A DNA stretch of 64,000 nucleotides, from positions 1-64,000 of the IMG/VR virus record IMGVR_UViG_3300042317_001798; one strand, written 5' to 3'. The notes under the pieces are model-generated. The model was not told the origin of the DNA, ran no database searches, and saw nothing but the letters and a program-made list of their open reading frames with translations. The position numbers and the translations under genes are program-made. Source of the stretch: a virus. The stretch's first letter is position 1. Each line of letters opens with the position of its first letter. Of the stretch, positions 29,374 through 53,783 are shown in pieces.

Positions 29374-29706
29374 ATGGCTTTTACAATAATCACAACAACA
29401 AATGGTCCAGTGGTTAAGAGTGGTACGAATCACTACACGCTCCACGATATTGCTGCATGTATTGATATTGCTGAAACAAACGCAACTTTTGTTGACGAAA
29501 TGGGCACTCACATTGCCAATGAGTTGATGGCCGCAGCCACGGAATGGACGGAAGCATTTGTCGGCGGACTGCAACCATCACAGAACAAAGTTGTTTACTA
29601 CATGAACTCTGGGGCGCATTTCAAAATGTTTGTCCAGCAGTATGATATGTACAAGCGGAACATGGAAAATCCACCGCCTGCGAGCGCCTCGGTTGTCGTT
29701 GAGTAA
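29374..29706 (+). CDS. Hypothetical protein
   Basis: I do not recognise this 110-aa protein. It is mildly acidic with a mixed helical middle (DIAACIDIAETNATFVDEM) and a C-terminal helix (HFKMFVQQYDMYKRNMEN) before a short proline/alanine tail. It overlaps the start of the following oxygenase gene, so the two are translationally coupled. Confidence 0.65.
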   Translation: MAFTIITTTNGPVVKSGTNHYTLHDIAACIDIAETNATFVDEMGTHIANELMAAATEWTEAFVGGLQPSQNKVVYYMNSGAHFKMFVQQYDMYKRNMENPPPASASVVVE

Positions 29707-30754
29707 AGCAGTCCAATTTCCTCCATTTTTTGGGAGCACGCCAAAAATTGGTAAATCAGAAGTACTAGAAATTGATTCAATTAATGACGTTCATCTTGGC
29801 GGCGGTGTTGTCTGTTTCAGAAATGCATTTAATCCGAACAAAGAACTCATTATGCCATGGGCTGACAGAAATGCACAGCTGGCGCATGAGCAAAGATGGA
29901 AATATCACACCGACAGCTCCGGTCAGAAATATGCGGTAAACGAGGACGGCAATAAATTCTCAATTGAACAGATAGAGGAAGTTCCAATTCGTGTTCTTCA
30001 GCCGGTACAGCAAGGCACCGAGCCGGAAGTTGTTGAGATATTCCAGAACTGGGAAGACCAAATTTATAAGTGCTTAATTAAGTACATTCACAGATTCCCA
30101 TTTGCTCTCGGAACAATATGGTGGAGGAGCAGGGGGCACCTTCTGCGATACGACGAGGGTGATTATTTGGGAATCCATAACGATAATGACTCAAACTATA
30201 GGGCCACAAACGGTGAAAGATTTGTCCCCAAGGGGCAGGTGCAGATGCGTCAAGTTGTTGCCGTAATGGCATACATCAATGACTGCGTATCGAGCACATC
30301 CGAATTGGATGGAACAAACTACATAGGCGGGGAGTTGTTTTTTCCATACCTTGATATTGAGCACCAAGCAAAATCCGGAGATATAGTAATTTTTCCTTGC
30401 AACTTTATGGCCACCCATGGCGTCCACACTGTTACGCATGGGAAACGATACGGGTATCTAGAGTTCTTTTCACAAGGTTCATCACATGATGACGTCTTAA
30501 TAAATGTGTCGGAGCCAGATGCTGTTGATGACTGGTGTCGTCCGCATTGGATTGACTCCCTGTATGACGATTACTCCCTCTATGCAAAACACTCAGATTA
30601 CGGTCAATCGGATTTTGATGAAGCAAGAACAAATCCTGTTTATCAGAATCGGGCGCTTGAGGGGGAAAACGGTTTATCTCGGCCGTATTACGCGAGCGAT
30701 GTAATAAAAGAAACAGAAAACAGGGGTAAAGTTTACCCCGACCAACTTATATAA
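29699..30754 (+). CDS. 2OG-Fe(II) dioxygenase (subfamily with WWRxRGH motif)
   Basis: A 351-aa Fe(II)/2-oxoglutarate oxygenase of the prolyl-4-hydroxylase-like type. The iron site is His160/Asp162 (LGIHNDND) and His240 (ATHGV), with Arg250 (GKRYGYLEF) for 2-oxoglutarate. It shares the block WWRSRGHLLRY before the HxD with proteins at 31616, 32392 and 33293. The TTG at 29699 is chosen since it couples to the previous stop; an in-frame ATG at 29642 is an alternative. The C-terminal 90 residues are an extension with no known fold. Confidence 0.85.
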   Translation: MSKAVQFPPFFGSTPKIGKSEVLEIDSINDVHLGGGVVCFRNAFNPNKELIMPWADRNAQLAHEQRWKYHTDSSGQKYAVNEDGNKFSIEQIEEVPIRVLQPVQQGTEPEVVEIFQNWEDQIYKCLIKYIHRFPFALGTIWWRSRGHLLRYDEGDYLGIHNDNDSNYRATNGERFVPKGQVQMRQVVAVMAYINDCVSSTSELDGTNYIGGELFFPYLDIEHQAKSGDIVIFPCNFMATHGVHTVTHGKRYGYLEFFSQGSSHDDVLINVSEPDAVDDWCRPHWIDSLYDDYSLYAKHSDYGQSDFDEARTNPVYQNRALEGENGLSRPYYASDVIKETENRGKVYPDQLI

Positions 30755-30775
30755 GCAGTCCCTGAAGCACCATAT

Positions 30776-31606
30776 TCATCTCGGTTCCTGCCAAGATGGA
30801 TAGTCACCTCTTGGCTTATCAAGTGAATTGTTCATTGTTAAGTGTTTTCCAAAAGTATTGATTCCATGTATGAATCCCAAATGCTCTGGAAATTTTAAAT
30901 CGATGCATATGTCTCTCAGTTTTCCGTCGCGAATCTGTTCCCAAATATAAACCATCGTTTCAGAGCCAGTTCTTCCATCCACGTAGAATTTTTCTGCTAT
31001 TAGGTTTAGCATTTCATCTTCCCATTTGGGATTTTTTGGTGTTATTTTGTCTTGAAACAGATGCTCTTTTGGCGGCGACATACTGCCAGACGCAATGAGC
31101 CGATTTACGTATTTTGCTGGAGCGGCAGATACGTGGACATCAAAAAGCCCGCCCGACAACAATGCCGCTGCTTCCCGTGCTGATGGTCCTGAAAGAATCA
31201 TGAGTCGATGCTTTTTATCAGTTAAAGCTTCATCTTCAATGGGGTACCCCCTAATTGCTCCCTCACAGTAGTTATCTGTTAGGCCAGAAACGATGGTCCT
31301 CCACTGGTGTTCTTCCTCGTCTCCATTCAAAGAATTTAAGTCAATATACAAACCTTTGTATTTGTTTATTAATACATTTCTTGGTGTTTCCATGGCTGCA
31401 TCATTTGTGCCTATGCAGATAATCGCCCCACACTCATCAGCAAGCTTCTCCAAAGTGAATAAATTATTTATTCCGCAATCCGATGCTCTGTGTATAGTCT
31501 CCATTGACCTATCCATCGATGCGAAAAATACAGAATGTCCTGCTAATTGCAATGACTTTGCGATTGTTGCACCCATTTTCCCGGGAGAATTAATTCCAAT
31601 TTTCAT
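30776..31606 (-). CDS. NAD(P)-dependent dehydrogenase of the 6PGDH / 3-hydroxyisobutyrate type
   Basis: A 276-aa oxidoreductase. The N-terminus MKIGINSPGKMGATIAKSLQ is the Rossmann nucleotide loop of the β-hydroxyacid dehydrogenase superfamily, and IICIGTNDAA is the fourth strand with the following turn. A C-terminal helical domain follows, as usual for the family. The catalytic Lys is not certain. It is the last gene of the minus-strand block, tail-to-tail with the oxygenase at 29699. Its substrate is unknown. Confidence 0.75.
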   Translation of the reverse strand: MKIGINSPGKMGATIAKSLQLAGHSVFFASMDRSMETIHRASDCGINNLFTLEKLADECGAIICIGTNDAAMETPRNVLINKYKGLYIDLNSLNGDEEEHQWRTIVSGLTDNYCEGAIRGYPIEDEALTDKKHRLMILSGPSAREAAALLSGGLFDVHVSAAPAKYVNRLIASGSMSPPKEHLFQDKITPKNPKWEDEMLNLIAEKFYVDGRTGSETMVYIWEQIRDGKLRDICIDLKFPEHLGFIHGINTFGKHLTMNNSLDKPRGDYPSWQEPR

Positions 31607-31615
31607 TGATACGCC

Positions 31616-32392
31616 TCACTTTATTGGACCAACAGGAACAAACTGTTGGACCGAATTTGCTGAATGACTAGTAATAAAATCAAGATGATACGAAAAGTTC
31701 TGCAATTCTTGTCTTTTATGTTCTGCCGGTGGGCTTATATCGAGAACGCCGTGGCAGAACCAGGAAAGATAAGCAAATCTCTCTCCCGTTTCTATTGGTG
31801 TTATCTCATGGCAACCAGAAAAGTTAGAAGGGTACACAACGATTGAACCAAACTTGGGGAATACGGTTATGCCCCATGGGCGGAAACTTAGATTTCCACC
31901 TGTGTATTTATCGTTTAGGAAAATGCTACACGTAAGAGTATTTGCTATTGGTGCCAATGAGATTGGAGTCAAACCATCATCTGCGTATGGGAGATTTGCG
32001 TCGGAATGTGGTCCTATCATTTGTCCCGGAAGATACCTAATTACATGACCCCTGGTCCGCCATTTTACGGCACCTGCGGCAGATGGGAATATCTCCAAGT
32101 ACTTACTGACACAGTTGGTTCCGGAGTCCTCCAAATCGCTCAAGGTTTGAAAATCTTTTTTTTCTATTCCCAAATGATTTACATTTAAGTATCTATGTGG
32201 GGCAATCTTTGCTTGTTCTAAATTGTGGTTATACCCACCAGAATTTTTTAAATTCTCATTACCCAAATTTGAGTAACCCTCATGGTTGGTGGACAGGAGG
32301 AGGTTTTCAAGATACTTATCGACATCTTGTTGTGTTGACTTTATTGCATTGTCAAACTGAACAATTCCATTTCCTAGATGCGTTATGTTCAT
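31616..32392 (-). CDS. 2OG-Fe(II) dioxygenase
   Basis: A 258-aa oxygenase. Iron ligands are His129/Asp131 (IGPHSDANL) and His195 (SGCHEI), with Arg205 (GERFAYLSWF) as the 2-oxoglutarate anchor. WRTRGHVIRY precedes the HxD, linking it to the proteins at 29699, 32392 and 33293. It starts on the last base of the previous stop (TAATG). Together with the next two upstream genes it forms a run of three tandem paralogues with low mutual identity, so the duplications look old. Confidence 0.88.
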   Translation of the reverse strand: MNITHLGNGIVQFDNAIKSTQQDVDKYLENLLLSTNHEGYSNLGNENLKNSGGYNHNLEQAKIAPHRYLNVNHLGIEKKDFQTLSDLEDSGTNCVSKYLEIFPSAAGAVKWRTRGHVIRYLPGQMIGPHSDANLPYADDGLTPISLAPIANTLTCSIFLNDKYTGGNLSFRPWGITVFPKFGSIVVYPSNFSGCHEITPIETGERFAYLSWFCHGVLDISPPAEHKRQELQNFSYHLDFITSHSANSVQQFVPVGPIK

Positions 32393-33300
32393 TAAAAACC
32401 GTCCGAAACCAGAGACATGGCATAGAAGTGTTTATCTGGCCCACAATTTTGTATGTATTCTCTAAAGTCTTTGCGCAAGTTGGGTAGGTAAACGTTTGTA
32501 GAAACCTTTGCAATTTCTGGTTCCTTAACAGGGTCTGCGATGTGCTCGTGATATTCGCTATTTGGGCTTCCGTGTGAATACCAACCCAAATATGAATATC
32601 TCTCCCCCCTGGAAACTGGAAGCACTTCATGTGATGCTATGTAATTTGATGGGAACATTAGTATGTCCCCCTTTCGTGGTTTGTAATTTATATTTAGTTC
32701 GTTAAAGAAATGGTGTCCTCCAGCAAATGAATTTACAGCATCATCGCCAGATTCATCGCAATCGTTAATGTAGACAATGCAGGATAGTGTATTTCTTGTT
32801 GCTAGCTGGTCGGATGGGTGTTCGTATCCATAGACGTAGTCGGCGCTTGTGTCTGAATGGACGCCAAGGTATTGGCGATTACCCACAACTCCAGATGGTG
32901 GAGATGAATACCTAACGATATGCCCCTTAACCTTCCACCAAATATTTTTGTAAGAAAGGGGATATCTGAGCATGTATTTGAGCAAATACCTATCTTTCGA
33001 GTCCTCCCAAAACTCAAGCATTTCCCTAAACTTATCTGAACATTGCTGATGGGCGGACGAACACCTACTTGGCATCGATGCAAATGTGTCGTAATCAAAA
33101 ATGTAGCCGCTCATATTTACTAGCGCTTTTTCGCCAGTTTCGGGATGAATTGTTTCGGTGTACATAGCGGAGGCGTCTCTGTCGACAAGCTCCCTACAGG
33201 AATTAATAGCAAATTCCCAGTCAAAGTCGATAGCCGACGGAAACAGACAAACACCAGCACCAAGTTCCATCATTTCTACGTCATTAAACTTATTAACCAT
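32392..33300 (-). CDS. 2OG-Fe(II) dioxygenase
   Basis: A 302-aa oxygenase of the same subfamily. WWKVKGHIVRY precedes His148/Asp150 (LGVHSDTS); His224 (SHEVLPVSRGER) and Arg234 complete the site. The ATG at 33300 is chosen because GGAG lies 8 bases upstream; an ATG at 33306 is also possible. The gene overlaps its upstream neighbour by eight bases. Its N-terminal half (residues 1-110) carries a small insertion rich in Cys and Asp not seen in the paralogues. Confidence 0.88.
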   Translation of the reverse strand: MVNKFNDVEMMELGAGVCLFPSAIDFDWEFAINSCRELVDRDASAMYTETIHPETGEKALVNMSGYIFDYDTFASMPSRCSSAHQQCSDKFREMLEFWEDSKDRYLLKYMLRYPLSYKNIWWKVKGHIVRYSSPPSGVVGNRQYLGVHSDTSADYVYGYEHPSDQLATRNTLSCIVYINDCDESGDDAVNSFAGGHHFFNELNINYKPRKGDILMFPSNYIASHEVLPVSRGERYSYLGWYSHGSPNSEYHEHIADPVKEPEIAKVSTNVYLPNLRKDFREYIQNCGPDKHFYAMSLVSDGF

Positions 33301-34126
33301 GGTCATTGCTCCGAGACCTGTGCGCTGCTGCTCTTGCTGGTGGCATTCCGGAATACTTGCCGTTGATGTATTCATCATAGTCTTCAGTGATTGAGCTCAA
33401 CCAAACTTGTCCACCTGTGTCTGAAATCTCCAACTGTGGGTTTATCCCTTTTTCTTGAGATTCTGAGCCCTGGGCAAACCAGGCAAGGTACGTGAGTCTT
33501 TCTCCACTTGTGATAGTGGATATCTCATGGGCGGCTACGTAATTAGCCGGAAACAAAAGTATGTTTCCTTTTTGCGGTTTGATTGCAACGTCTGCATACG
33601 GAAATAACATTTCACCGCCACAAAACGCTCCTGGCGCTGGGGTTTCCGACCAGTCGTTAATGAAAACTATTGCACTCAGAACGTTTCTAGTTGCGTGTTC
33701 CTTGCTGGGCATTTTTCCATATCTGTAGTTCACATCATTATCCGAATGAAGCCCCAGTGAACCACCGGTTGAATAAGAGAGGATATGTCCAGAAGTTCTC
33801 CACCACAGGCAGCTAAGGATTGCTGGAAACATTTCAATGTACTGCAAAAGACAGGAATATATCGCTGGCTCAAATTCGTTGTATATTTCGCTACCCAACC
33901 CTTGTAGTCTGAGTGGAGCTTTTGCCATGTCCTGCAGGCTATAAATAAAACCGCCCTGATTTAGCGCGTGGATTGGATTTCCGTTTTCATCTAGGACAAC
34001 GGTAAAATTTTCTTCTATTGCCTTTTGCTTCAACTTCTCTATCTTGTCTGAAAATTTACTGAATTCGATGTTCGCAGCGGCCACAAACTCGATTATTCCA
34101 TGACCATGATTTATCACGGAGCTCAT
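33293..34126 (-). CDS. 2OG-Fe(II) dioxygenase
   Basis: A 277-aa oxygenase, third of the tandem set. WWRTSGHILSY precedes His127/Asp129 (LGLHSDND); His200 (AAHEISTITSGER) and Arg210 follow. A GGEMLFPYADVAIKPQKGN segment is the usual prolyl-hydroxylase-like jelly-roll strand pair. Its ATG overlaps the stop of the glutathione-peroxidase-like gene by four bases. Confidence 0.88.
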   Translation of the reverse strand: MSSVINHGHGIIEFVAAANIEFSKFSDKIEKLKQKAIEENFTVVLDENGNPIHALNQGGFIYSLQDMAKAPLRLQGLGSEIYNEFEPAIYSCLLQYIEMFPAILSCLWWRTSGHILSYSTGGSLGLHSDNDVNYRYGKMPSKEHATRNVLSAIVFINDWSETPAPGAFCGGEMLFPYADVAIKPQKGNILLFPANYVAAHEISTITSGERLTYLAWFAQGSESQEKGINPQLEISDTGGQVWLSSITEDYDEYINGKYSGMPPARAAAHRSRSNDHG

Positions 34127-34737
34127 AGCAGGGACCTTATGGCTTGTTTTATTGAATTATCCTCCCCGAATAAAGCCTGCTCCGATATCGGTGATTCCGC
34201 CCAATTAAATCGACCAACATAAACGCCTTCTCGTGATGTTAAGAATTTTTCCCAATTGTTCGGAACCCTCATTGCAACTTCCCCCGCTCTATTTCTTCCA
34301 GCAGCCGCAGCGGCACTCAAGTCGGCCATGCTGTCGTTAAAATTTCTTATTAGCTCTCCATTTAGGAATGAGTAAACGTCATGCCTATTTTGCCCGTTAA
34401 CGTCTATTTTTTCTGCTATCGGAAATGTAACGTAGGGATAATTTTTTTTTATATTTTCAAAAATTTCCAAATTGTCGCCATTCTCCATGTTCCCAAATTG
34501 GTTGCATGGGTAACCGACGACGCTAAAACCGCTATCACAAAATTCTTCATGAAGTTTTTGCAATTCCCAAAAATTTTTAGCTGTTCTTGCATAAGACCAT
34601 AGACGACTGCACTTTGGCGAGTATCCGGTCTTTGATACAACGTTTACATGGAGGAGCACTTTACCCCTTAACTGTCCAAGCAAATTTGGACAGCCATCCA
34701 AAGAGCTTATTTCTATATCAAAAATCGATTTACTCAT
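34123..34737 (-). CDS. Glutathione-peroxidase-fold protein lacking the catalytic cysteine
   Basis: A 204-aa thioredoxin-fold protein clearly related to glutathione peroxidases: SIFDIEISSLDG at the start, GYPCNQFGNMEN (residues 75-86), VTFPIAEKIDVNG and NWEKFLTSREG. The loop that normally reads NVASKCG is NVVSKTG here, so the peroxidatic Cys is Thr37; Cys43 lies six residues later. Peroxidase activity is therefore doubtful, and it may act as a binding protein or use another cysteine. The ATG at 34737 gives the family's N-terminus. Confidence 0.85.
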   Translation of the reverse strand: MSKSIFDIEISSLDGCPNLLGQLRGKVLLHVNVVSKTGYSPKCSRLWSYARTAKNFWELQKLHEEFCDSGFSVVGYPCNQFGNMENGDNLEIFENIKKNYPYVTFPIAEKIDVNGQNRHDVYSFLNGELIRNFNDSMADLSAAAAAGRNRAGEVAMRVPNNWEKFLTSREGVYVGRFNWAESPISEQALFGEDNSIKQAIRSLL

Positions 34738-35029
34738 CCTCTGACACCGTACATGAGATTTTGGTATTAAGAAATTCACCTATTCTTAGAAAACCGCTTC
34801 CAGATTCCGTATCAATATCGATTTGTACCGTCGTAATAATTGGTGCCTCTAGTTCAAATCTGCTACTTATACTCTTTCCGTTATTGCCGATGACCACATT
34901 TTCTCCAGGCACCACGTGGGTTCCCCTGCTATGGTTGATTGCAATTGAGCCATCTTCGGAAAGAGTTAATCTGCAAACTTCTTCCCCAAATGGTGTATCA
35001 ACGGAGATATCCCAAGACCCCAAAATCAT
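34730..35029 (-). CDS. Hypothetical small β-rich protein
   Basis: A 99-aa protein that looks entirely β: ILGSWDISVDTPFGEEVCRL, GSIAINHSRG, then SISSRFELEAPIITTVQIDI. The pattern (GxWxxxxxTPxGE at the start, alternating strands) resembles small lipocalin- or avidin-like barrels. No family assigned. It overlaps the peroxidase-like gene by eight bases. Confidence 0.65.
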   Translation of the reverse strand: MILGSWDISVDTPFGEEVCRLTLSEDGSIAINHSRGTHVVPGENVVIGNNGKSISSRFELEAPIITTVQIDIDTESGSGFLRIGEFLNTKISCTVSEDE

Positions 35030-35036
35030 GGCATCG

Positions 35037-35645
35037 TTACTGTGAATTGCGGCCTCTTGCCCAAGGACTCATGTCCGGGTATACCGTTGTATTTGGAATT
35101 CTTGGGTGGAGGTTAAAGCTTACGCAAACTCTAGGTTTGTCTTCATTGTGTCTTTCTGTCTGATGGGGAACAAATGAGTTGAAAAATACAATCTTCCCTG
35201 TTTCTGGTTCTATTTTTGTAACCATGTTGTATGCGTTCATGGCTTCTCCGTAAAGGCAAAGTCGGCATCCTGGACCAACAGCATCGATGTAAATAACACC
35301 AGACCAGTACTCGCTTGGAAAAAGATGCGCATTCGAACTATGTCTATGGTAAGGAGTTGATTGTCCTTTTTCTAAAATTCCACACCATATGTCTGCAAGG
35401 ACAACGTCGCCAAGTACTTCGTTGGCCCTATGCTCAATCATGTCACGCAAACCCTGACACTCTTTTGTGTTTGGCAGAACGTAATCAACCCCACTCTGCA
35501 CGTCAACAAATTCTTTTGCATCTGGGAAATCTGGATGTATTCTAGATTCCAAAATTTGAGACGCTATTACCGAATAATCAATTCCTTTAATGAATGATTC
35601 ATGGGCTCTGATTGGAACTAACCAAATCCAGCCATTGTTATTCAT
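35037..35645 (-). CDS. Putative 2OG-Fe(II) oxygenase (PF13759-like, HxH type)
   Basis: A 202-aa cupin-like oxygenase. Features are ADIWCGILEKGQSTPYHRHS with His100/His102, YWSGVIYID, GKIVFFNSFVPHQTERH with His161, and PRVCVSFN with Arg172. That pattern fits the 'putative 2OG-Fe(II) oxygenase' family found in marine phages rather than the prolyl-hydroxylase type. The ATG at 35645 has AGGAG nine bases upstream. Confidence 0.78.
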   Translation of the reverse strand: MNNNGWIWLVPIRAHESFIKGIDYSVIASQILESRIHPDFPDAKEFVDVQSGVDYVLPNTKECQGLRDMIEHRANEVLGDVVLADIWCGILEKGQSTPYHRHSSNAHLFPSEYWSGVIYIDAVGPGCRLCLYGEAMNAYNMVTKIEPETGKIVFFNSFVPHQTERHNEDKPRVCVSFNLHPRIPNTTVYPDMSPWARGRNSQ

Positions 35646-36309
35646 GCGCAAAATCTCCTGTTGCTAGCCCCATTGGGGGAACATCTTTTGTCCATACATT
35701 AATGACCATTACTTGCCTTAGTCTAGACCCTGCTGGTGTCGTGTTATGTACCACATGGCCGGAATCAAATACTACGAGCCTGTTCCCCTTGTACCTAATC
35801 CTCTCTCTTTCATTTGGTGGAGAAGACGCGTATGCGGCAAGTACAGATGGCTCCAAGGCCAACGTTGAGCCATCCTCCAACCTTGAGTTGTGGATTTCGA
35901 GAAAGCCACCGTCATCATTATCGCATCCATACCAAACACAGCCAATCCGCGGTCCGTAAAACGTACCTGTCAACAGATATGCAAATGTATCCTCATCTAC
36001 ATGCTCCCCTATGAACTGACCTGGTTCGAATGTCCTGGTCCAGTATTCGAAACCAATGACCTCTTCAATCGGAAAAGGTAATCTCTTTTTCCAGATTTCT
36101 TTTATAACTAAATGCTTGAGGCTTCTTGGTTGGCTTTTCCCCCATCCATCCCAAAACATATAGGACGATAGCTCCTTGGAATCCCCGTGATACGAGTTGA
36201 GACTTGTCGCTATTTGTTGACCATCTTCATATTTCGACGCGAAAAAAGTTTCATCGCGCAAGACTTGTTCGTACAATTCTGCCGGAACGCAGTTATCTTC
36301 AACGAACAT
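35638..36309 (-). CDS. 2OG-Fe(II) dioxygenase
   Basis: A 223-aa oxygenase of a third type. The iron site is His103/Asp105 (FIGEHVDEDTF) with a distal His at 185 or 188 (DSGHVVHNTTPAG) and an Arg (SRLRQVMVINVW) for 2-oxoglutarate. The FEPGQFIGEHVDED block and FDSGHVVHNT block are typical of phage prolyl-hydroxylase-like enzymes. It overlaps the following gene by eight bases and is three bases after the aspartyl-hydroxylase-like gene. Confidence 0.82.
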   Translation of the reverse strand: MFVEDNCVPAELYEQVLRDETFFASKYEDGQQIATSLNSYHGDSKELSSYMFWDGWGKSQPRSLKHLVIKEIWKKRLPFPIEEVIGFEYWTRTFEPGQFIGEHVDEDTFAYLLTGTFYGPRIGCVWYGCDNDDGGFLEIHNSRLEDGSTLALEPSVLAAYASSPPNERERIRYKGNRLVVFDSGHVVHNTTPAGSRLRQVMVINVWTKDVPPMGLATGDFAHE

Positions 36310-36312
36310 AAT

Positions 36313-37029
36313 TTATAAAAACTTTTCATTCGGAAATTTACTTCTGAGGTAAGCAAGGTCAAAGTCGAACATCAAAACAAGACGTCTTGATGTACCATCA
36401 TGTCTTACCGAGTGCTCAAACGGCGGGCCATCCTTGAAAGCAAGAATCTTGCCTTCTTCCCAACTTTTTGTTTCGTCGCCTACGGTTATTCTACAGTCCT
36501 TATCGTTTATTAGGCACAGGTGACTTCTCATTAGTTGGTCAGAACCAAAATGCGGATTTACTACCGCCCCAGGATGCATTATGCTGAACATTCCGCCAGA
36601 ACATTGGTTGCTGTCAGCGAACTCAGCAACTATCGAGTTAAACGTTTTGAATTGTTTCCTAACGTGCTCTAGGTGTGTTTCTAGATTGGCTTTTGTTTTC
36701 CACCTCAGTATTTTTTTTACCATTTCCGTATTTGCCCACTGCTTGGGGTCACTTGCTGGTGGAGTTCCGGCAACCGCTACGTCCCAGGAGCCTGTATAAA
36801 GCTTTCGCCTATCCCCTTCCGGCAAGTCTGATTGTGGATTTTCGTACCTTGCGTGAGAGAGGGTAACATTTGGGGCAGGCAGAGAAACCTTGTTATCGGA
36901 GTATGGGTGTTGAGTGTTTTCGTAAACGATGTACTCGTCACGTATCTTTTCCCAGTTTTTCTCAATCTGCACACACACGGGCAAGGACCTGATTAATTCA
37001 TCCCAGAACCTTGGCTGCAAGTCACTCAT
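36313..37029 (-). CDS. Aspartyl/asparaginyl β-hydroxylase-family protein
   Basis: A 238-aa protein with the C-terminal hydroxylase domain: FSIMHPGAVVNPHFGSD with His160, RSHLCLINDKDCRITVGD with Arg168, SWEEGKILAFKDGPPFEHSV with His206, and RRLVLMFDFD. This family hydroxylates Asp, Asn or Pro residues in peptides or small molecules. A poor ribosome site precedes the start; a 36-base gap separates it from the methyltransferase-like gene upstream. Confidence 0.85.
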   Translation of the reverse strand: MSDLQPRFWDELIRSLPVCVQIEKNWEKIRDEYIVYENTQHPYSDNKVSLPAPNVTLSHARYENPQSDLPEGDRRKLYTGSWDVAVAGTPPASDPKQWANTEMVKKILRWKTKANLETHLEHVRKQFKTFNSIVAEFADSNQCSGGMFSIMHPGAVVNPHFGSDQLMRSHLCLINDKDCRITVGDETKSWEEGKILAFKDGPPFEHSVRHDGTSRRLVLMFDFDLAYLRSKFPNEKFL

Positions 37030-37065
37030 TTTTTGATACTAACACGTTTCACGTGCTTAAAGATT

Positions 37066-37791
37066 TTAATTTTTAATGAAAACCGTTTGTCCGTATCCGT
37101 TGGCCAGGTGGTATGTGTGCCCGTCGCTGTTTTTAAGAATTTCATGCATGCTTGAATATGGGTGAATATGAAAGTCTTCCCTGTAAAGCTTCGTATTGTG
37201 ATTGGACATGCCAATCAGTAGAACACCACCAGGATTCAGTGATTCAACCAAATCTTTAACAAGTTTGTCATTGCCCACAAGAGACCAACCCCAGCAAATG
37301 GCCATGTCAAATGTGTTTTCAGATATTTCATTTGGCTCGACGACGCAGTATTCGTTAAGCTCATTGATGCCCGGGCCAGGTAATTCTAGTTCCCCGGCAA
37401 TATGCTCCAAAAAGAACAATGAGTGATTATTCACAAAACACAAGTCTGTGTCTGGAAATTTTGCTTTATACATACTCCAAAGTAGTATTTCTGCATCGAC
37501 GAATAACAAGGAATTTGGCTTCTTTGTCATTAGAACTTGTTCTTGAGCGATGTATTCAGCTTCGATTATCGCTGCCCATTCTGGTTCCATTCCCTTAATG
37601 AGTTCATAAATCCAGTATGTGTTCAGTCCTGCTACAGCAACATTTCTCTTGTCAAGATTGATTGATGAAAGCCAGCTTGATACCGCGCTTCCTGCATCGC
37701 TCATCAACTGAGCAAAATCAATATTGTTGCTAAATTGGGTCTTTGATGACTGCTGCGTCACCAGAGCGCTCCTAATTGCAAAATTATCCAT
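37066..37791 (-). CDS. SAM-dependent methyltransferase-like protein
   Basis: A 241-aa Rossmann-fold protein. The segments NVAVAGLNTYWIYELIKG, FDMAICWGWSLVGNDKLVKDLVESLNPGGVLLIGMSN resemble strands and helices 1, 4 and 5 of class I methyltransferases. The glycine-rich motif I is degenerate, so activity is not certain. It overlaps the small gene at 37784 by eight bases. Possibly a decoration enzyme acting on the same target as the oxygenases. Confidence 0.6.
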   Translation of the reverse strand: MDNFAIRSALVTQQSSKTQFSNNIDFAQLMSDAGSAVSSWLSSINLDKRNVAVAGLNTYWIYELIKGMEPEWAAIIEAEYIAQEQVLMTKKPNSLLFVDAEILLWSMYKAKFPDTDLCFVNNHSLFFLEHIAGELELPGPGINELNEYCVVEPNEISENTFDMAICWGWSLVGNDKLVKDLVESLNPGGVLLIGMSNHNTKLYREDFHIHPYSSMHEILKNSDGHTYHLANGYGQTVFIKN

Positions 37792-38092
37792 TTTGGATTA
37801 CCGCCAATACAACTTGTCTCTGGAACCAGAGATGCCTTGCCCTATTTGTTAGTAGAAAATTTCTTTTACGCGTTAAGTCGTAGTATGGTTTTCCCTGTTG
37901 GTTAAATGTCGAACTGCTCATGTGAAATGACTGTCTCAGACTAAAAAAAATGTCGTCGAACTCGACTTCGGATATTTGATTGAACTCCATACCGGCTATG
38001 TACATTATCTTTGCGAGTTCGCGCTCTATTTCCTGCAAGTGCGAAGCAGCATCGAAGAGAGGCTCTTCACCGTGTTGTCTAGTCTGTTTCAT
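37784..38092 (-). CDS. Small hypothetical protein
   Basis: A 102-aa protein, helical and basic at its C-terminus (LTRKRNFLLTNRARHLWFQRQ). First of five consecutive small orphan genes reading left. Overlaps its upstream neighbour by fourteen bases and its downstream neighbour by eight. No family recognised. Confidence 0.65.
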   Translation of the reverse strand: MKQTRQHGEEPLFDAASHLQEIERELAKIMYIAGMEFNQISEVEFDDIFFSLRQSFHMSSSTFNQQGKPYYDLTRKRNFLLTNRARHLWFQRQVVLAVIQNG

Positions 38093-38387
38093 CTGTAAAT
38101 TCCTCGGTCCAGTCGTCGTTTATATCAATCGGGTCTTGTCCAAATTGGGACATTGGGTCATTCCCCTGTAGGCGCTCACAAAATAATGCAGCGCCGTCCG
38201 GAAGAACGAAAGAAAAAGTTTTTGGGTTCCAGTGCAAAACATTTTCTGTTCTATCTGGATTGTCCATTGGGTTGGTTATGTCTGGTTCTGATTTTGACTG
38301 CTCAGGACAGATGTTGTATTGCCCTGTAGCGATGGCAGCGTCCACCAGCGGAACATTCCTTTTGATTGGCGGTAAATTCAGCTCCAC
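38079..38387 (-). CDS. Small hypothetical protein
   Basis: A 102-aa acidic, proline-rich protein (NPMDNPDRTENVLHWNPKTFSFVLPDG near the middle) that ends in a run of Asp/Glu. It looks poorly structured apart from that central strand region. No family recognised. Overlaps the next gene by fourteen bases. Confidence 0.6.
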   Translation of the reverse strand: MELNLPPIKRNVPLVDAAIATGQYNICPEQSKSEPDITNPMDNPDRTENVLHWNPKTFSFVLPDGAALFCERLQGNDPMSQFGQDPIDINDDWTEEFTDETD

Positions 38388-38397
38388 AATGAAACCA

Positions 38398-38613
38398 CTA
38401 CGAGAGTCGCTGCAGAGACTCTATTTGTCTAATCAGATTGTTGAAAGACTTGTATCTTGTTGCGTCTGATTCTGGAGTCTCTGGGTTTTCAAAATTCTCA
38501 TCAAGTGTTTCTGGATTGACGCCAAGAGAAAGGGCAAGTACGTATATCGAGTATTCAAGATATTGCTTTGCTTCTTGTCGTGCTTGTTGTTTTTGTTCAT
38601 CCGAAAGCGCCAT
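38398..38613 (-). CDS. Small hypothetical helical protein
   Basis: A 71-aa helical protein starting MALSDEQKQQARQEAKQYLEY with an acidic middle and a second helix at the end (FNNLIRQIESLQRLS). A good AGGAG ribosome site lies 9 bases upstream of the ATG, which supports expression. Function unknown. Confidence 0.65.
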   Translation of the reverse strand: MALSDEQKQQARQEAKQYLEYSIYVLALSLGVNPETLDENFENPETPESDATRYKSFNNLIRQIESLQRLS

Positions 38614-38625
38614 GTTGATTTTCTC

Positions 38626-38871
38626 CTATTTAAGTGTGTCCATTGTCAGATTCGATGCTTGTCTAAAGTGGCCGACTTGGCGCAATAACTTTTCTTTGCG
38701 AGTTGGTCTATCAGAATCACGAACATTAAGGTTTTCCATAACTTCATCTTCGGATATCTCAAGAGGGTCTATGGCGCTCAGAAGCAATGTATGAATCTGG
38801 GCGTTAATCAGCTGCTGATGCAGTCTAAACCCAGCAGCAATCTTTGCCTGTTTGCTAATCCCAAATTGCAT
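38626..38871 (-). CDS. Small hypothetical helical protein
   Basis: An 81-aa protein with a helical N-terminal half (KQAKIAAGFRLHQQLINAQIHTLLL) and a charged second half. It has no cysteines and no membrane segment. It lies between two genes of the same character with gaps of 6-12 bases. Confidence 0.6.
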   Translation of the reverse strand: MQFGISKQAKIAAGFRLHQQLINAQIHTLLLSAIDPLEISEDEVMENLNVRDSDRPTRKEKLLRQVGHFRQASNLTMDTLK

Positions 38872-38877
38872 TTTTGC

Positions 38878-39099
38878 CTACGAGTTAAGTTCATTCAGCT
38901 TGCGCTTAATCAGTTTTACTGCATTTATTGACTCATTGAGGATTGGGACCTCGAAATTGTGCTCAGCCTCAAGAATAAATGTGTCTGGGTCTATTCCGTG
39001 CCCAATCAGTCTTTCAAACAACACCTTTTCGGCGTCCCTAAGGCTGCGCTCAAATATCCCGCGCTTCTCGTTATTTGTCAATTGAGACGAAAATTCCAT
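38878..39099 (-). CDS. Small hypothetical helical protein
   Basis: A 73-aa helical protein (ERSLRDAEKVLFERLIGHGIDPD near the middle). The ATG at 39099 is preferred to the preceding GTG; GGAG and AGG lie just upstream. It is the first of the small-gene run, 43 bases after the stop of the 39143 gene. Confidence 0.6.
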   Translation of the reverse strand: MEFSSQLTNNEKRGIFERSLRDAEKVLFERLIGHGIDPDTFILEAEHNFEVPILNESINAVKLIKRKLNELNS

Positions 39100-39142
39100 C
39101 ACCTATCTCCGATTGTGTTGTTTGCTTTGAATCATACCACCA

Positions 39143-39850
39143 TTATACTATGGGCTCCGAAAGTGCTGGCAGCCCAGCAAATGTTGGGCCTATTTGATTT
39201 CCGTCCGCGTCAAGACCTGTCTTAATGCCCTTTGTCCAAGTCCATGGGCGTTCGATATTGTTCTGCGACTTGAGTTGACCATATTTTGACCTTGCCTCCA
39301 CCAGCTCCTTATCGTCCCATAGTGTCACTACCTCGAATTCTGCGTCTTTAATGATTTGAGGCGAGTAGATGTTAAAAAAACACAAAGGCGAACCGGCTGG
39401 GAAAACTACTTCCTGATTTTCTTTTGTTATCTTCCAGTTCATTTGAACTTCGTCAGGCCACCACCACGAAGGAATCGTTGCTGACAGCCCGACAGCGCCG
39501 TCTATAAAGTAATTTGGAGAGCCCGAAATCCAAGTCTCATACCCTGGCTCGGTGTTTATAATCCATCCCATGTGTAGGGAAATGGTTCCTATTATTGATG
39601 ATGTGGCTTGCTTTCTGCCGCTTTTAGTAAATTCGCCTGCAAGTATTTCGGGGGGAGTGTTTCCGCCGGACCATTTAATTACAAGGTCCTCCTCCATCTG
39701 CACTTCCCATCCCATTACATTCGCCACGGAGACTGGCATGCATTGATAAGCGTGTTTTTTATGTGTCTCGTCCATCCAGTCTCTCTTTAATCTTGACTGA
39801 ACTATCCGAGGTGGATTTGGGTCTGTTCTTTTTAAAACTATCTTGCTCAT
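39143..39850 (-). CDS. Conserved hypothetical protein, resembles DUF6065
   Basis: A 235-aa protein with a CMPVSVANVMGWEVQ motif near residue 37, then DLVIKWSGGNTPP, a FTKSGRKQATSSIIGTISLHMGW block and IPSWWWPDEVQMNWKIT. This order resembles DUF6065 proteins seen in aquatic phages and bacteria; I am not certain. The many Trp residues suggest a β-rich binding protein. Its ATG overlaps the stop of the upstream oxygenase by four bases, so it may serve that enzyme. Confidence 0.6.
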   Translation of the reverse strand: MSKIVLKRTDPNPPRIVQSRLKRDWMDETHKKHAYQCMPVSVANVMGWEVQMEEDLVIKWSGGNTPPEILAGEFTKSGRKQATSSIIGTISLHMGWIINTEPGYETWISGSPNYFIDGAVGLSATIPSWWWPDEVQMNWKITKENQEVVFPAGSPLCFFNIYSPQIIKDAEFEVVTLWDDKELVEARSKYGQLKSQNNIERPWTWTKGIKTGLDADGNQIGPTFAGLPALSEPIV

Positions 39851-40566
39851 TTCTTTACCGACATATCAATACTTGTTCCAGACGAAACCCCAGCCCCATA
39901 TGTTGCCTTTGAGCCGTCAATATTCTCCCCGTAGCCATGTTTGTGAGTTCTGTCGTTGTAGTCAAACATGGTCACTGCCGCATACTTTGTTCCAGAAACA
40001 ACAGGTCGCGACGCGTGGGCATACGTAAACGTAGATGGGAACATTACGTTGTCCCCAGCGGCAAACTTCACGTTTAGGTCAAGATATGGGAACCAAAGCT
40101 CACCCCCCTCGTAGTCGTCATTTATGTATATGACTGACGAAACTGTACAGTTATAAGAAAATCCATGGTCTGTGTGAACGTTGAAGTGCTGACCAGGCTT
40201 ATATCGCACATAATTTATGGCTTCACGATAATCCATTTTGATGTTAAATCTTTGCTGATAGTCGTTAAGACATGCCGTTAATATTTCAACGGTATCTTCG
40301 TATACTGAGCGAAGTCCGGAAAATTCTTGTGGCAAGTTTGCTATATGGGCATCTCCCAATTTACAATCAACGCAGTCTCTGTATTCTGGCATTTTTTGTT
40401 GGTCGCCAACGAGTGCATCCATCCACATATACGGCGCGGTTTCACTGGACCCAATCGCCTCTTCAATTCTCTCCGGTATGTTCAATTCCCGTGGGAGCGC
40501 ATTGCGATAGACGATTATTGCCAATCTCGGGTCTCCAATAAACTCAACCTCGATATTTCTTACCAT
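39847..40566 (-). CDS. 2OG-Fe(II) dioxygenase (prolyl-4-hydroxylase-like)
   Basis: A 239-aa oxygenase with a typical prolyl-4-hydroxylase core: INYVRYKPGQHFNVHTDHG with His131/Asp133, SSVIYINDDYEGGELWFPYLD, GDNVMFPS, and YAHASRPVVSGTKYAAVTMF with His184 and Lys194 in the 2-oxoglutarate position. GGAG sits 8 bases before the ATG. It overlaps the next gene downstream of the neighbouring oxygenase by 23 bases, the largest overlap in the array. Confidence 0.9.
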   Translation of the reverse strand: MVRNIEVEFIGDPRLAIIVYRNALPRELNIPERIEEAIGSSETAPYMWMDALVGDQQKMPEYRDCVDCKLGDAHIANLPQEFSGLRSVYEDTVEILTACLNDYQQRFNIKMDYREAINYVRYKPGQHFNVHTDHGFSYNCTVSSVIYINDDYEGGELWFPYLDLNVKFAAGDNVMFPSTFTYAHASRPVVSGTKYAAVTMFDYNDRTHKHGYGENIDGSKATYGAGVSSGTSIDMSVKK

Positions 40567-41098
40567 ATTGGTTGCTCCTTTTTTGTTTATGTTTCATAGA
40601 AAACCACATTGGGCATGCCCACCTATCCCCTCCGTATACATTATCTACATAATGAGCAAATTCAATACCGCCACCATAAATTACAACCCGGCCTGGGGAT
40701 GGCTTCACGGTATTGCCCGTATCGGCAAAAACAAGTTCCCCCCCATTGAATTCTTGGTTCAAATACAGAACCGCAGACACATCAAAGTCCTCACACCCAA
40801 GCTTTGGTGAGCCATCCAAATTCTGCCTGTCTGCGTGCAGTGTTGGGACATGAAGTCCAGATTTGCTGACAAAAATTCCGGGCATTCTATGCTCAAGTTC
40901 AATGTCATATTTTTTCTCTGCGGCTGCCATGACAACCCATGATGCAAATATCAATGACTCGGCGGCTTCAAAATCTTCTGTCAGTAGTCTGTCAATTCCA
41001 ATACTTTCGCCAATTTTTACTGCCGCCGACAATATTTTGGAAATAGTCGTATCTTCAAAAAGCGAATCTATGATATGTACTTTGTCTACTCTATTCAT
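40544..41098 (-). CDS. 2OG-Fe(II) dioxygenase (HADxxxLDGxP subfamily)
   Basis: A 184-aa oxygenase. His88/Asp90 lie in LHADRQNLDGSP, His149 in EFAHYVDNV and Arg159 in GGDRWACPMWF; LYLNQEFNGGELVF gives the jelly-roll core. The LHAD..(L)DG.P sequence links it to the proteins at 41091 and 42494. The ATG at 41098 is chosen; it overlaps the upstream stop by eight bases. Confidence 0.85.
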   Translation of the reverse strand: MNRVDKVHIIDSLFEDTTISKILSAAVKIGESIGIDRLLTEDFEAAESLIFASWVVMAAAEKKYDIELEHRMPGIFVSKSGLHVPTLHADRQNLDGSPKLGCEDFDVSAVLYLNQEFNGGELVFADTGNTVKPSPGRVVIYGGGIEFAHYVDNVYGGDRWACPMWFSMKHKQKRSNQYGKKYRG

Positions 41099-41726
41099 CC
41101 ACAACAGTATAGAACGATGGGGTCGTATATCTCTCCCCAGATTCAACCATGCTTACCCCGTGTAAGTACCCAACATCACCAGGATGTATCACTGCCAAGC
41201 CGGGTTTTGGTCTAACGGTAATCCCGTGCTGTGGGTAATACAAATCGCCACCCTCAAAGTCGTCATTGTAATAGAACAATGAATTGATGTCGTAATCCGT
41301 GAAGGCGTTTGGTCTTCCGTCATTTAGTTGCTTATCGGCATGGGGGCGCTGCTCTATGCCTGCCCGCCATTTCATTATCACCGGAGGGCGCACTGAAACA
41401 GAAACCTGAAAAAGCTCTTCGATGAGGTTCTTCATTTTGTAGATGTATTTATCAACAATTTCATAAACCTCCGAGTTCAGCTCCTTTAAAATTTCAGAAC
41501 TGCACTGCCTGTCGTTCCAGTATTCTGCGTTATACAAACATGTTCCATCTTCCGCATAAACGCTTTCGGCTGTGTTGTTCCATTTATTTATTGTTGGGCA
41601 AAATTTCTGAACTAAGAGCAAGTCTTCTAGTTCGATAAAATTTTCAATTATGTGGATGTTCTCTGGTCCGCTGCCAAAATGCCCGGGTTTTATCTTCCAG
41701 GGTGAATCGATATCAATCATTTCCAT
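41091..41726 (-). CDS. 2OG-Fe(II) dioxygenase (HADxxxLDGxP subfamily)
   Basis: A 211-aa oxygenase. His129/Asp131 lie in RPHADKQLNDGRPN, His189 in YLHGVSMVESGERY and Arg199 follows; SLFYYNDDFEGGDLYYPQHG is the core strand pair. It has an ENIHIIENFIELEDLLLVQ start that resembles KSNIVVVENFMTPEHVELA in the protein at 42494, so the two are close paralogues separated by a sulfotransferase gene. Confidence 0.88.
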   Translation of the reverse strand: MEMIDIDSPWKIKPGHFGSGPENIHIIENFIELEDLLLVQKFCPTINKWNNTAESVYAEDGTCLYNAEYWNDRQCSSEILKELNSEVYEIVDKYIYKMKNLIEELFQVSVSVRPPVIMKWRAGIEQRPHADKQLNDGRPNAFTDYDINSLFYYNDDFEGGDLYYPQHGITVRPKPGLAVIHPGDVGYLHGVSMVESGERYTTPSFYTVVDE

Positions 41727-42501
41727 GTGATTTCCTTTGGGACGTTATATGTTCATACAACATAACATCCAATTTGCTTCTTTCAAGTATTTCCTTTTTT
41801 TGTGACGGGCTCGGTTTTATTCCAGCTCGGACCGATGAGTTCATTTTTTCTAAACCCAACCCTACAAATTCAACATTGAATTTATCCTTAAATTGATAAG
41901 TCAAATATTTTTCTACGGCCATTCGCTCGTTCATTTCAAAAATTGTAATGTCTTTAATTCTGTCTATTAGTTCTTTTTCTCCAGTAGGTAAATCGGACTC
42001 GACAAACCATGCACCATTAGGCTGAATACTAACCCCTGGTGATTCATCCCCAACATCTAAGACTGCATTGATTTCAACCATCCTGCACGTAAGCATCTTG
42101 GTTTGCAAATTTCCGTCAGATGAAAACAATTTACATCCAAAAATTGTTTCGTATTTTCCGTCTAAGAACTTGTCAAGAATTTCGTTTGTAAATTCCCTTC
42201 GGGACGACATGGCCCTGTATGCAGCAATGCTGACAAAATGGTCTACCGGCTCCCTTATAACGGAGAACGTCTCCAGGCTGCTGTCGTTGTGTAAAATTGG
42301 ATTGATTGCAAAATGACCACTAATTGTGGGCCATTCGCTCATTGTTATGTGATTATATGAAAATTCAAAAATCCCAGGGGTTTGGTTTTCGTATTTATCA
42401 AGACCCTTTTTGTATCTATCCAGTTCAAACGATTTATGTATTGCGTAAAGTATTCCGGTCCCAGATGTGCGCGGTATATGCAGATGATAAAGATTACCCA
42501 T
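41713..42501 (-). CDS. Sulfotransferase-family protein
   Basis: A 262-aa protein with the sulfotransferase nucleotide signatures: HIPRTSGTG (residues 8-16), the 5'-phosphosulfate loop, and FSVIREPVDHFVS (79-91), the 3'-phosphate binding strand and helix. Such enzymes move sulfate from PAPS to hydroxyl or amino groups of sugars, proteins or lipids. It lies between two oxygenases and overlaps them by 8-14 bases, so a hydroxyl group installed by those enzymes could be the acceptor. That link is inference. Confidence 0.82.
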   Translation of the reverse strand: MGNLYHLHIPRTSGTGILYAIHKSFELDRYKKGLDKYENQTPGIFEFSYNHITMSEWPTISGHFAINPILHNDSSLETFSVIREPVDHFVSIAAYRAMSSRREFTNEILDKFLDGKYETIFGCKLFSSDGNLQTKMLTCRMVEINAVLDVGDESPGVSIQPNGAWFVESDLPTGEKELIDRIKDITIFEMNERMAVEKYLTYQFKDKFNVEFVGLGLEKMNSSVRAGIKPSPSQKKEILERSKLDVMLYEHITSQRKSHGND

Positions 42502-43078
42502 TTTGGGCCATCTCTATTAATTTCCTGTGTTTTTCTGGAACCCAGAAGTGGGGAGATGTATATCTAACTCCTTCTATCACTTGCCTTACGCCATGGAGGT
42601 AATAACTGCTGGATGGAAAAAATATCAAAGAACCCTCTTTTGGTTTTAGTTCAAGTCCGTGTTGCGGAAAATATATTTCCCCACCTGTGTAATTCTGATT
42701 TATATAAATTACGGAACCGTAATCAACTATGTATGTTCCGTTTGGCGTGCCGTCTAGGTCTTCGCCATCCGCGTGAAGACCTTGACTCTCCCCAGAGTCC
42801 CATCTTCGTATGCCCGGTCTTGCTGTCTCTAGGATTCTCCCAAATTTAAACTCAATCATTTTCTTTACGTCATCAACGTATGATTGCATTATTTCATAGA
42901 GTTCGGGGTTATCCTTCTGCATTTTTTTGTATGTGGATATCTTGTCATTACCGCCCTTTGACCATGACTCCCACTCATTGATTGAATAGCAATAGCGATA
43001 TGCAAGTTCGACGTGTTCGGGCGTCATAAAATTTTCTACTACAACTATGTTTGATTTGTCGGCAGCTGCAGCTCTCAT
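42494..43078 (-). CDS. 2OG-Fe(II) dioxygenase (HADxxxLDGxP subfamily)
   Basis: A 194-aa oxygenase. His102/Asp104 lie in GLHADGEDLDGTPNG, His162 in YYLHGVRQVIEGVRY with Arg172 after it, and YINQNYTGGEIYFPQHG is the core. Its HADGEDLDGTP matches the neighbours at 40544 and 41091. It lies 10 bases after the glutathione-peroxidase-like gene at 43089 and ends cassette C. Confidence 0.88.
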   Translation of the reverse strand: MRAAAADKSNIVVVENFMTPEHVELAYRYCYSINEWESWSKGGNDKISTYKKMQKDNPELYEIMQSYVDDVKKMIEFKFGRILETARPGIRRWDSGESQGLHADGEDLDGTPNGTYIVDYGSVIYINQNYTGGEIYFPQHGLELKPKEGSLIFFPSSSYYLHGVRQVIEGVRYTSPHFWVPEKHRKLIEMAQNG

Positions 43079-43088
43079 GGCTACAACC

Positions 43089-46048: not shown

Positions 46049-46050
46049 GT

Positions 46051-53252: not shown

Positions 53253-53783
53253 TTACGGCTCTACTGTAAAATCTTTTTCAACCGTATAAAAAACATTGCT
53301 CAAGTGGGTCAGGAACCCTGCTCCAGCTTCGTTTACTGGAACATCTAACACCAATGGGACAGTCAGCGCAGCACGTTCCGCTCTAGGCATGGCTCTAAAT
53401 TCTTCCACTGTGTATCCGTACGCATGAGCTTCTTCGTTAATGAATTTCTCTTCGATGCGAAGAGCCACCTGAGTTGCAATTCCCTTCCCTCTGTGGTCTG
53501 GATGAACCAGCATCAAAAGAGGATGACGAACGCCTGCGTCGTCAACGTATCTAGCAACCACGCAAAGAAGCAGGCCGTCTCCGTCTTGTCTGTAGAGCGT
53601 GAAATAAACATCTCTAGGATTATCGTCGCCAAAAACAGATGGAATTTTTGTTGGTTCAATAAAATCCCTATACCCAGGAATACCAAATTCACCGAATTTG
53701 TTTTCCCAATTAAACCAACCTTGGAATGTGTATTCTGGCTCTGTTGGTTCTCTTGGTGTCCAGATTTCTTCAGCGTTGCTCAT
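53253..53783 (-). CDS. GNAT-family acetyltransferase
   Basis: A 176-aa acetyltransferase. LLMLVHPDHRGKGIATQVALRIEEKF (residues 89-114) is motif A with the acetyl-CoA-binding RGKGIA loop. DVYFTLYRQDGDGLLLCVVARYV gives the preceding strands. The substrate is not known. It lies between the FnIII-repeat adhesin and the DUF6171-like gene in cassette B. Confidence 0.85.
   Translation of the reverse strand: MSNAEEIWTPREPTEPEYTFQGWFNWENKFGEFGIPGYRDFIEPTKIPSVFGDDNPRDVYFTLYRQDGDGLLLCVVARYVDDAGVRHPLLMLVHPDHRGKGIATQVALRIEEKFINEEAHAYGYTVEEFRAMPRAERAALTVPLVLDVPVNEAGAGFLTHLSNVFYTVEKDFTVEP

Follow-up and report, generated by a model that had tools for sequence, protein, structure and literature searches.

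The DNA analysed here (the window) comprises bases 1-64000 of a 76,516-base IMG/VR virus record (IMGVR_UViG_3300042317_001798) and contains thirteen genes for Fe(II)/2-oxoglutarate (2OG) oxygenases, 11 of which are packed into 13.4 kb beside a gene whose product ends in a (PP[Y/F]F)n repeat (the PPxF tract). We find that this repeat and the oxygenase genes are linked beyond the phage lineage of the window itself. The uncultivated phage is of myovirus type, since the window has genes for a terminase, the sheath of a contractile tail, a baseplate J-like protein and repeat proteins of the tail region; among the matches listed, the closest terminases of deposited phages share at most 44% identity with that of the window. 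The cluster (29630-44027) sits between plus-strand tail genes, which end near 29.2 kb, and a run of minus-strand tail-region genes, and it is directly adjoined by the gene for the PPxF protein, which also has FN3 domains. Genes are named below by their first coordinate in Table 1.

Thirteen oxygenase genes in one phage

The original prediction, made from the sequence alone, of thirteen 2OG oxygenase genes is borne out: all 13 open reading frames (ORFs) exist and all encode family members by curated profiles, and the proposed subfamilies (four WW-type, three HAD-type, two of prolyl 4-hydroxylase (P4H) type and four singletons) agree with the sequences. The gene placed at 29699 is real, but its ORF begins at 29630, and 29699 is an in-frame internal position. 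Matches to PF13640, PF13759, PF05118 and PF05721, the Pfam families named for checking the assignment, cover all 13 genes. PF13640 scores above its curated cut-off in eight of them (29630, 31616, 32392, 33293, 39847, 40544, 42494 and 52409) and below it in 35638 and 41091, where the E-values are significant (4e-5 and 2e-4, respectively); 41091 also matches the phrog_61 2OG oxygenases at 3e-15. The PF05118 cut-off, which 36313 exceeds, is 22.6 bits, and the PhyH-type ORF at 63503 runs on to record position 64321.

In each of the 12 families that were aligned, conservation of the predicted ligand set (HxD or HxH, a distal His, and Arg or Lys) reaches 95% or more. The alignments hold 1-86 homologues per family, taken from related contigs and PPxF loci and including some near-identical copies of close relatives; they are thin for 40544 and 52409 (one homologue each) and for 36313 (three), and 63503 was left out, its motif being read by eye. 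The order HxD...H...R is found in 29630, 31616, 32392, 33293, 35638, 40544, 41091 and 42494, HxH...H...R in 35037, and a His pair with Arg in 36313. HxD...H...K is found in 39847 and 52409, and we take Lys as the 2OG-binding residue to be a trait of prolyl 4-hydroxylases. In 35638, H103, D105, H188 and R198 are invariant across 14 sequences. The AlphaFold2 model of this protein (mean pLDDT 82), the only oxygenase modelled, has the double-stranded beta-helix fold and matches prolyl hydroxylases, with a root-mean-square deviation (rmsd) of 3.2 over 159 aligned residues; comparison of its profile with PDB sequences gave nothing beyond a MutT match at E 0.48. Because profiles, conservation and one fold agree, we rejected chance motif matches.

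Table 1. Oxygenase genes, candidate substrates and other features of the window
Feature	Coordinates	Strand	Evidence
2OG oxygenase, WW-type 1	29630..30754	+	PF13640 33 bits; H183, D185, H263, R273, 12 homologues
2OG oxygenase, WW-type 2	31616..32392	-	PF13640 38 bits; H129, D131, H195, R205, 5 homologues
2OG oxygenase, WW-type 3	32392..33378	-	PF13640 47.8 bits; H174, D176, H250, R260, 11 homologues
2OG oxygenase, WW-type 4	33293..34126	-	PF13640 39.5 bits; H127, D129, H200, R210, 12 homologues
2OG oxygenase, PF13759 type (HxH)	35037..35651	-	PF13759 44 bits; H102, H104, H163, R174, 4 homologues
2OG oxygenase, divergent, prolyl-hydroxylase fold	35638..36309	-	PF13640 24.9 bits; model Z 13.0
Asp/Asn beta-hydroxylase-type 2OG oxygenase	36313..37029	-	PF05118 86 bits; H160, H206, R216, 3 homologues
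2OG oxygenase, P4H-like (HxD..H..K)	39847..40566	-	PF13640 41.5 bits; H131, D133, H184, K194
2OG oxygenase, HAD-type	40544..41146	-	PF13640 38 bits; H104, D106, H165, R175, one homologue
2OG oxygenase, HAD-type, widely conserved in cassette	41091..41726	-	PF13640 22.8 bits; H129, D131, H189, R199
2OG oxygenase, HAD-type	42494..43078	-	PF13640 33.8 bits; H102, D104, H162, R172, 10 homologues
2OG oxygenase, P4H-like, second module	52409..52996	-	PF13640 58 bits; H125, D127, H178, K188, one homologue
PhyH-type 2OG oxygenase, continues past window (272 aa)	63503..64000	+	PF05721 46.5 bits
FN3 tail-region protein with C-terminal (PP[Y/F]F)11, proposed substrate	44024..45268	-	PF00041 fn3, 4 stretches
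PPxF tract, 46 residues	44036..44173	-	Coordinates computed by hand from ORF
Cys- and Pro-rich protein with SPPPSPPP tract, proposed substrate of 52409	53820..54791	-	
GNAT acetyltransferase-like protein, second module	53253..53783	-	PF00583 24.6 bits
NAD-binding Rossmann-like protein	30776..31606	-	Weak: PF03446 17.8 bits, below cut-off
Glutathione-peroxidase-like protein	34123..34779	-	PF00255 91 bits
Conserved cassette protein, no Pfam match	37066..37791	-	Homologues in 6/119 PPxF loci
DUF6065 protein, dUTPase-like predicted fold	39143..39850	-	PF19541 148 bits; 56/119 PPxF loci; model Z 11.4
Sulfotransferase-like protein	41713..42501	-	Family profile vs heparan sulfate 6-O-sulfotransferase E 4.8e-4
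Long glutathione-peroxidase-like protein	43089..44027	-	PF00255 28 bits; family profile vs Hyr1/GPx 2e-12
Fibre-like tail-region protein, recurring partner	45272..46072	-	66/119 PPxF, 1/42 GGFF, 0/23 random loci
Glycosyltransferase-like protein	62415..63506	+	PF13524 19.5 bits, below cut-off

Association of the PPxF repeat with oxygenase genes

The C-terminus of the FN3 protein reads PPYFPPYFPPYFPPFF... (11 units) and then GFK. A Gly-X-Y triplet tract, as in collagen-like tail proteins, was looked for in 44024 and not found: the G000 genes hold none, and the PPxF tract is there instead. A like tract adjoins the cluster in G001, G003, G004, G006, G017 and G042. The repeat is strictly kept: all 939 units of 80 tracts have F at the second variable position, and at the first the residue is F in 630, Y in 236, H in 65, W in 6, T in 1 and A in 1. 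A pattern scan found the repeat in at least 119 IMG/VR stretches, compared to 8 in 84,980 bacterial and archaeal genomes. Cassette homologues are absent from five of these eight cellular loci (8 kb each), which belong to Salipaludibacillus, Brevibacillus, Lysinibacillus, Paraburkholderia and a Magnetococcales metagenome-assembled genome (MAG); the other three are contigs of two MAGs and have 8, 6 and 2 PF13640 matches (judged by contig number). The Salipaludibacillus, Brevibacillus and Lysinibacillus loci (L366, L367 and L369) hold short PPYY/PPFY-repeat ORFs.

Viral records with the PPxF repeat differ substantially from four control sets in the frequency of oxygenase genes. PF13640 matches are found in 44 of 50 PPxF-bearing IMG/VR records (43 above the cut-off), with at least four matches in 34 records, a median of 6 and a maximum of 11. 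These 50 records, each at least 16 kb long, come from 80 listed of the 119 stretches, one qualifying record (L261) being left out. An open PPxF ORF is seen in 45 of them, and 39 of these 45 carry PF13640; L186, L197, L226, L228 and L257 have no open PPxF ORF of at least 60 residues in the DNA examined, and all five carry PF13640. By comparison, PF13640 is found in 4/42 records with a GGFF repeat, 1/23 with a made-up 16-mer (the random set), 9/50 with a collagen GPT repeat and 4/48 with an SPPP repeat (Fisher P ≤5e-13 for GGFF, GPT and SPPP; 3e-12 for the random set). Short contigs are present in the GGFF and random sets; a hand count of their records of at least 16 kb gave 3/17 and 0/13. The GPT set consists of 50 listed records >17 kb, with L459, L460 and L197 (the last also a PPxF record) left out; the SPPP set is 48 of 49 listed records >17 kb, and inclusion of the remaining one (L552, the record of L010, a cluster-bearing close relative) gives 5/49. 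Given the counts for SPPP and GPT, we rejected a general rule for proline-rich phage proteins.

The repeat and the oxygenase genes are also close neighbours. A 2OG ORF is present in 73 of the 103 loci with an open PPxF ORF, at a median gap of 142 bp and within 2 kb in 68, but in 0 of 23 GGFF-ORF loci. Among the 119 PPxF loci, homologues of 39847 occur in 70 and those of 41091 in 68, besides those of DUF6065 and the fibre-like gene (Table 1); no homologue of 39847, 41091 or DUF6065 was found in the 42 GGFF and 23 random loci. The partners that recur in other phage contigs are DUF6065, the long glutathione peroxidase (GPx)-like protein, the fibre-like gene and the PPxF-repeat protein. Because the oxygenases travel as a cassette with these partners, sequence comparison gives good support to a coordinated function. 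The original prediction had gone further, to a coordinated modification pathway; the coordination stands, and the biochemical pathway is something that we infer.

Descent, a second module and oxygenase numbers in other phages

The cassette-repeat association is broad. The window's terminase was found in 1 of the 50 PPxF records, but as many of these are fragmentary, the terminase gene may lie outside them; three further PPxF records carry a different terminase. The lineage spread rests on few records, because a PF03237 terminase was found in just 5 of the 50 (4 above the cut-off). In G006, cassette and repeat stay linked despite a rearranged gene order. Clustering of the N-terminal parts of the PPxF proteins (59 were long enough) gives 50 clusters at a 90% identity threshold but 11 groups at 30%, and 2OG genes are found in 7 of these 11 groups.

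A tree that takes in 9 of the 13 oxygenases supports the WW-type group (100/100), the HAD-type group (95/72) and a group of 39847 with 52409 (89/73). Within the WW-type group, three of the four subfamilies form one-sided clades together with genes from other phage contigs, and therefore these duplications predate the divergence of these phages. The ratio of nonsynonymous to synonymous substitution rates (dN/dS) was uninformative, as synonymous sites were saturated in 10 of 11 comparisons; the one unsaturated comparison, for 52409, gave 0.05.

Terminase relatives in IMG/VR were limited to the best 80 of 285 stretches. Among eleven relatives that lack the cluster, six have one or two 2OG genes along with collagen-like genes, and four, all fragments of 80-92 kb, have neither at the thresholds used. 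Of the seven 2OG genes tested in five cluster-less relatives (G008, G011, G012, G013 and G014; G015, a near-copy of G014, was left out), six have a collagen-like gene within 5 kb (null mean 0.94, P 5e-5), and the 2OG genes of G008, G011, G013 and G014 fall near 39847 in the tree. Outside the cluster, 52409 belongs to a second module with the GNAT and SPPP proteins; the three genes occur together in G000, G001 and G017 and are together absent in G003 and G004. Since G000/G001 and G003/G004 are near-copies, these make about three independent cases. The SPPP protein has a Cys-rich middle and a SPPPSPPPSPPP tract, and its start looks FN3-like by eye; in its G017 counterpart a long proline run replaces the tract.

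Thirteen such genes in 34 kb had been called unusual. This holds for their density, but not for the total per genome: eight cultured or single-cell cyanophage-type records, which were picked as 2OG matches and are hence biased, have 10, 11, 8, 11, 4, 2, 7 and 7 PF13640 matches over 149-244 kb, compared to 8 in the present record (by a whole-record search, which misses some genes that hmmscan finds). The cyanophage-type genes are dispersed, with at most 5 in 14 kb (hand count). PF13640 is found in 13 of 20 TerL-related or 36313-related records, seven with 4-9 matches and six with 1-3. As cultured cyanophage-type records reach 10-11 PF13640 matches, we rejected the idea that the window is unique in number; it is exceptional in density and linkage rather than in total gene number. 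In two cultured cyanophages, 2OG genes lie beside glycosyltransferases and a radical SAM gene (L623, PQ898602.1) or near a sulfotransferase (L627, NC_020851.1), which hints at a similar logic.

The cluster also encodes candidates for further modification. As a single protein, the sulfotransferase-like 41713 has no Pfam or NCBIfam match, and an NCBIfam search of the proteins gave nothing decisive. The predicted structure of DUF6065 resembles dUTPases (rmsd 4.2 over 126 residues; among the matches listed, all 50 are dUTPases), with a Foldseek query TM of about 0.4; its profile against PDB sequences reached a best E of 0.12. A tblastn search of 50,697 phage records (E 1e-5) found no match to DUF6065 or to the long GPx-like protein. 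PF11397, which we take to be the family of the Skp1 hydroxyproline N-acetylglucosamine (GlcNAc)-transferase, has no match among the window proteins scanned and is found in the clusters of two relatives, G017 (5e-36) and G006 (3e-29); in G017 it neighbours a radical SAM/SPASM gene (L131:13429-14547). PF11397 was rejected as a universal partner, being present in 4 of 50 PPxF records. Elsewhere in the window, 57991-60714 encodes a 907-aa protein built of short repeats around LHTAPRTASGSG, shadowed by several alternative-frame ORFs, and 7878-9020, far from the cluster, encodes a PAPS-reductase-like protein (phrog_2302) that might relate to sulfur supply.

A possible modification of tail repeats and its alternatives

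The original prediction named no substrate; the linkage points to tail-region proteins as the probable one. The evidence leans, if not strongly, towards a cassette by which the phage modifies proteins after translation, hydroxylating and perhaps decorating proline/aromatic repeats of its tail. With the P4H-like 39847 in the lead, the 2OG oxygenases would hydroxylate prolines of the FN3 protein's (PP[Y/F]F)n tract, and other oxygenases perhaps neighbouring aromatic or acidic residues of the tract; 52409 would hydroxylate the nearby SPPP-tract protein. The sulfotransferase-like protein, or in relatives the PF11397 GlcNAc-transferase, may then decorate the new hydroxyls by sulfation or GlcNAc addition, and the GPx-like proteins may serve in protection or thiol-processing of the products. 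The tail tip would end up chemically hardened or adhesive. From the linkage and the type of enzyme we infer hydroxylation with the tract as substrate and, more tentatively for every later step, the modified residues, their decoration, a place for the PPxF protein in the virion tail and the biological purpose.

Several observations weigh against such a cassette. Prolyl hydroxylation of one or two tracts should not require thirteen enzymes, and a story of tail modification alone would not predict the dUTPase-like model of DUF6065. Six of the 50 PPxF records lack PF13640, and a local profile finds one 2OG ORF in two of these six loci. SPPP repeats are generally not enriched for PF13640, and collagen repeats are not clearly enriched (9/50 versus 1/23, P 0.11). 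The TerL relative G018 lacks a 2OG gene but carries a collagen-like one, and a third PF13640 match of G013 (near 136.5 kb, outside the distance test) lies 5.2 kb from the nearest collagen-like gene, which would change the 6/7 of that test to 6/8. The enrichment of PF11397 by itself is weak (4/50 PPxF versus 0/42 GGFF records, P 0.08). None of eight ~6-kb cyanophage 2OG neighbourhoods has a PPxF or collagen-like tract, with a Gly-rich run in one. Finally, part of the association is shared descent, because one N-terminal group accounts for 39 of 57 loci and 4 of the 11 groups have no 2OG gene in the DNA examined.

That same predominance of one N-terminal type, together with the recurrence of the partner genes as a block, would be expected if the oxygenases and the PPxF protein were simply co-inherited in a variable, exchangeable tail-region island and the enzymes acted elsewhere. 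We consider linkage of this kind, with no enzyme-substrate relation, unlikely, since six further N-terminal groups with a PPxF tract also carry 2OG genes, several of them clustered, the linkage survives rearrangement of gene order between relatives, and the 52409/SPPP pair is gained or lost jointly. Rather less probable is a pathway like those of peptide natural products, in which a PPxF precursor would be matured by 2OG enzymes, radical SAM/SPASM proteins and transferases, and then released or displayed. The G017 cluster, with its radical SAM/SPASM gene and PF11397, fits such a pathway, as do short PPxF ORFs (for example, 77 aa in L371), but the window's PPxF protein has FN3 domains, a fibre-like gene is present in 66 of the 119 PPxF loci, and Pfam recognised neither a protease nor an exporter in the window cluster.

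Bases might instead be what the 2OG enzymes hydroxylate, and the dUTPase-like DUF6065 would then supply or protect nucleotides. The DUF6065 model (Z 11.4), the weak similarity of 42494 to Tet_JBP (E 0.03, below the cut-off) and the Erf-like and PAPS-reductase-like genes elsewhere in the window are consistent with nucleotide or DNA modification; however, the cassette is situated among the tail genes and goes with a repeat of the tail region, the usual dUTPase catalytic motifs were not seen among the invariant DUF6065 columns, and Pfam recognised no DNA-modification partner in the cluster (37066 has no Pfam match), so that we regard this explanation as improbable. Least probable is reprogramming of host metabolism through 2OG or nitrogen status, which PMC3037559 proposes for cyanophages, where 2OG genes are frequent, as it leaves the 13 divergent enzymes, the tail location and the PPxF linkage unexplained.

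Modification of the phage's own tail repeats would have counterparts in known systems. The Chlorella virus PBCV-1 is a eukaryotic algal virus with a single P4H enzyme, whose presumed targets are proline-containing proteins of the virus itself; here, in contrast, 11-13 diverse 2OG enzymes are accompanied by a strict PPxF repeat and possible decorating enzymes in a tail region of bacteriophage type. The Skp1 pathway offers a parallel for the proposed order, prolyl hydroxylation first and sugar transfer to hydroxyproline second, and the PF11397 family, presumably that of its transferase, occurs in two relatives' clusters; the Skp1 pathway differs in serving cytoplasmic oxygen sensing on one proline of Skp1. 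Phage collagen-like tail proteins are likewise proline-containing tail-region repeats, with a 2OG gene nearby in the present lineage, but consist of Gly-X-Y triplets, whereas PPxF is a four-residue repeat without glycine. The 2OG oxygenases of cyanophages (PHROG 61) belong to the same superfamily and occur in many copies per genome, in S-SSM7 with one 2OG gene two genes from a tail-fibre gene; they are dispersed over the genome, whereas those of the window are clustered and have DUF6065 and long GPx partners.

PMC9301287 cites Eriksson (1999) for a PBCV-1 prolyl 4-hydroxylase and hydroxyproline in viral proteins, and describes P4HA as a viral auxiliary gene of "cryptic" use. In PMC3515798, prolyl hydroxylation of Dictyostelium Skp1 is followed by glycosylation of the hydroxyproline. 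For cyanophages, a table in PMC3037559 gives up to 5 2OG genes per genome, and the text reads the enzymes as acting in DNA repair or 2OG metabolism, with proposals for the many phage 2OG oxygenases ranging from DNA repair to nitrogen sensing; PMC12774648 notes a resemblance of phage 2OG proteins to EGLN3. In the literature searched (mostly outside subscription journals), we found no description of a PPxF tail repeat or of a linked 2OG cassette, and no mention of DUF6065. Many 2OG genes per phage genome are already known from cyanophages, and the new element is a probable substrate, the PPxF tract.

A wider reading, which we regard as possible yet doubtful, is that this chemistry is widespread among phages, though so far overlooked, and that a mobile multi-oxygenase cassette makes from strict PPxF tail repeats polymers that are hydroxylated, sulfated or glycosylated and contain hydroxyproline and perhaps hydroxylated aromatics. 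If so, these polymers would correspond, in phages, to hydroxyproline-rich glycoproteins or mussel-type adhesives and would serve for attachment to hosts or particles. A candidate substrate encoded next door makes the role of phage 2OG oxygenases directly testable by mass spectrometry. If confirmed, elaborate oxygen-dependent protein chemistry would take place on phage tail tips, with consequences for host attachment and oxygen dependence, and phages would be a source of prolyl and aromatic hydroxylases.

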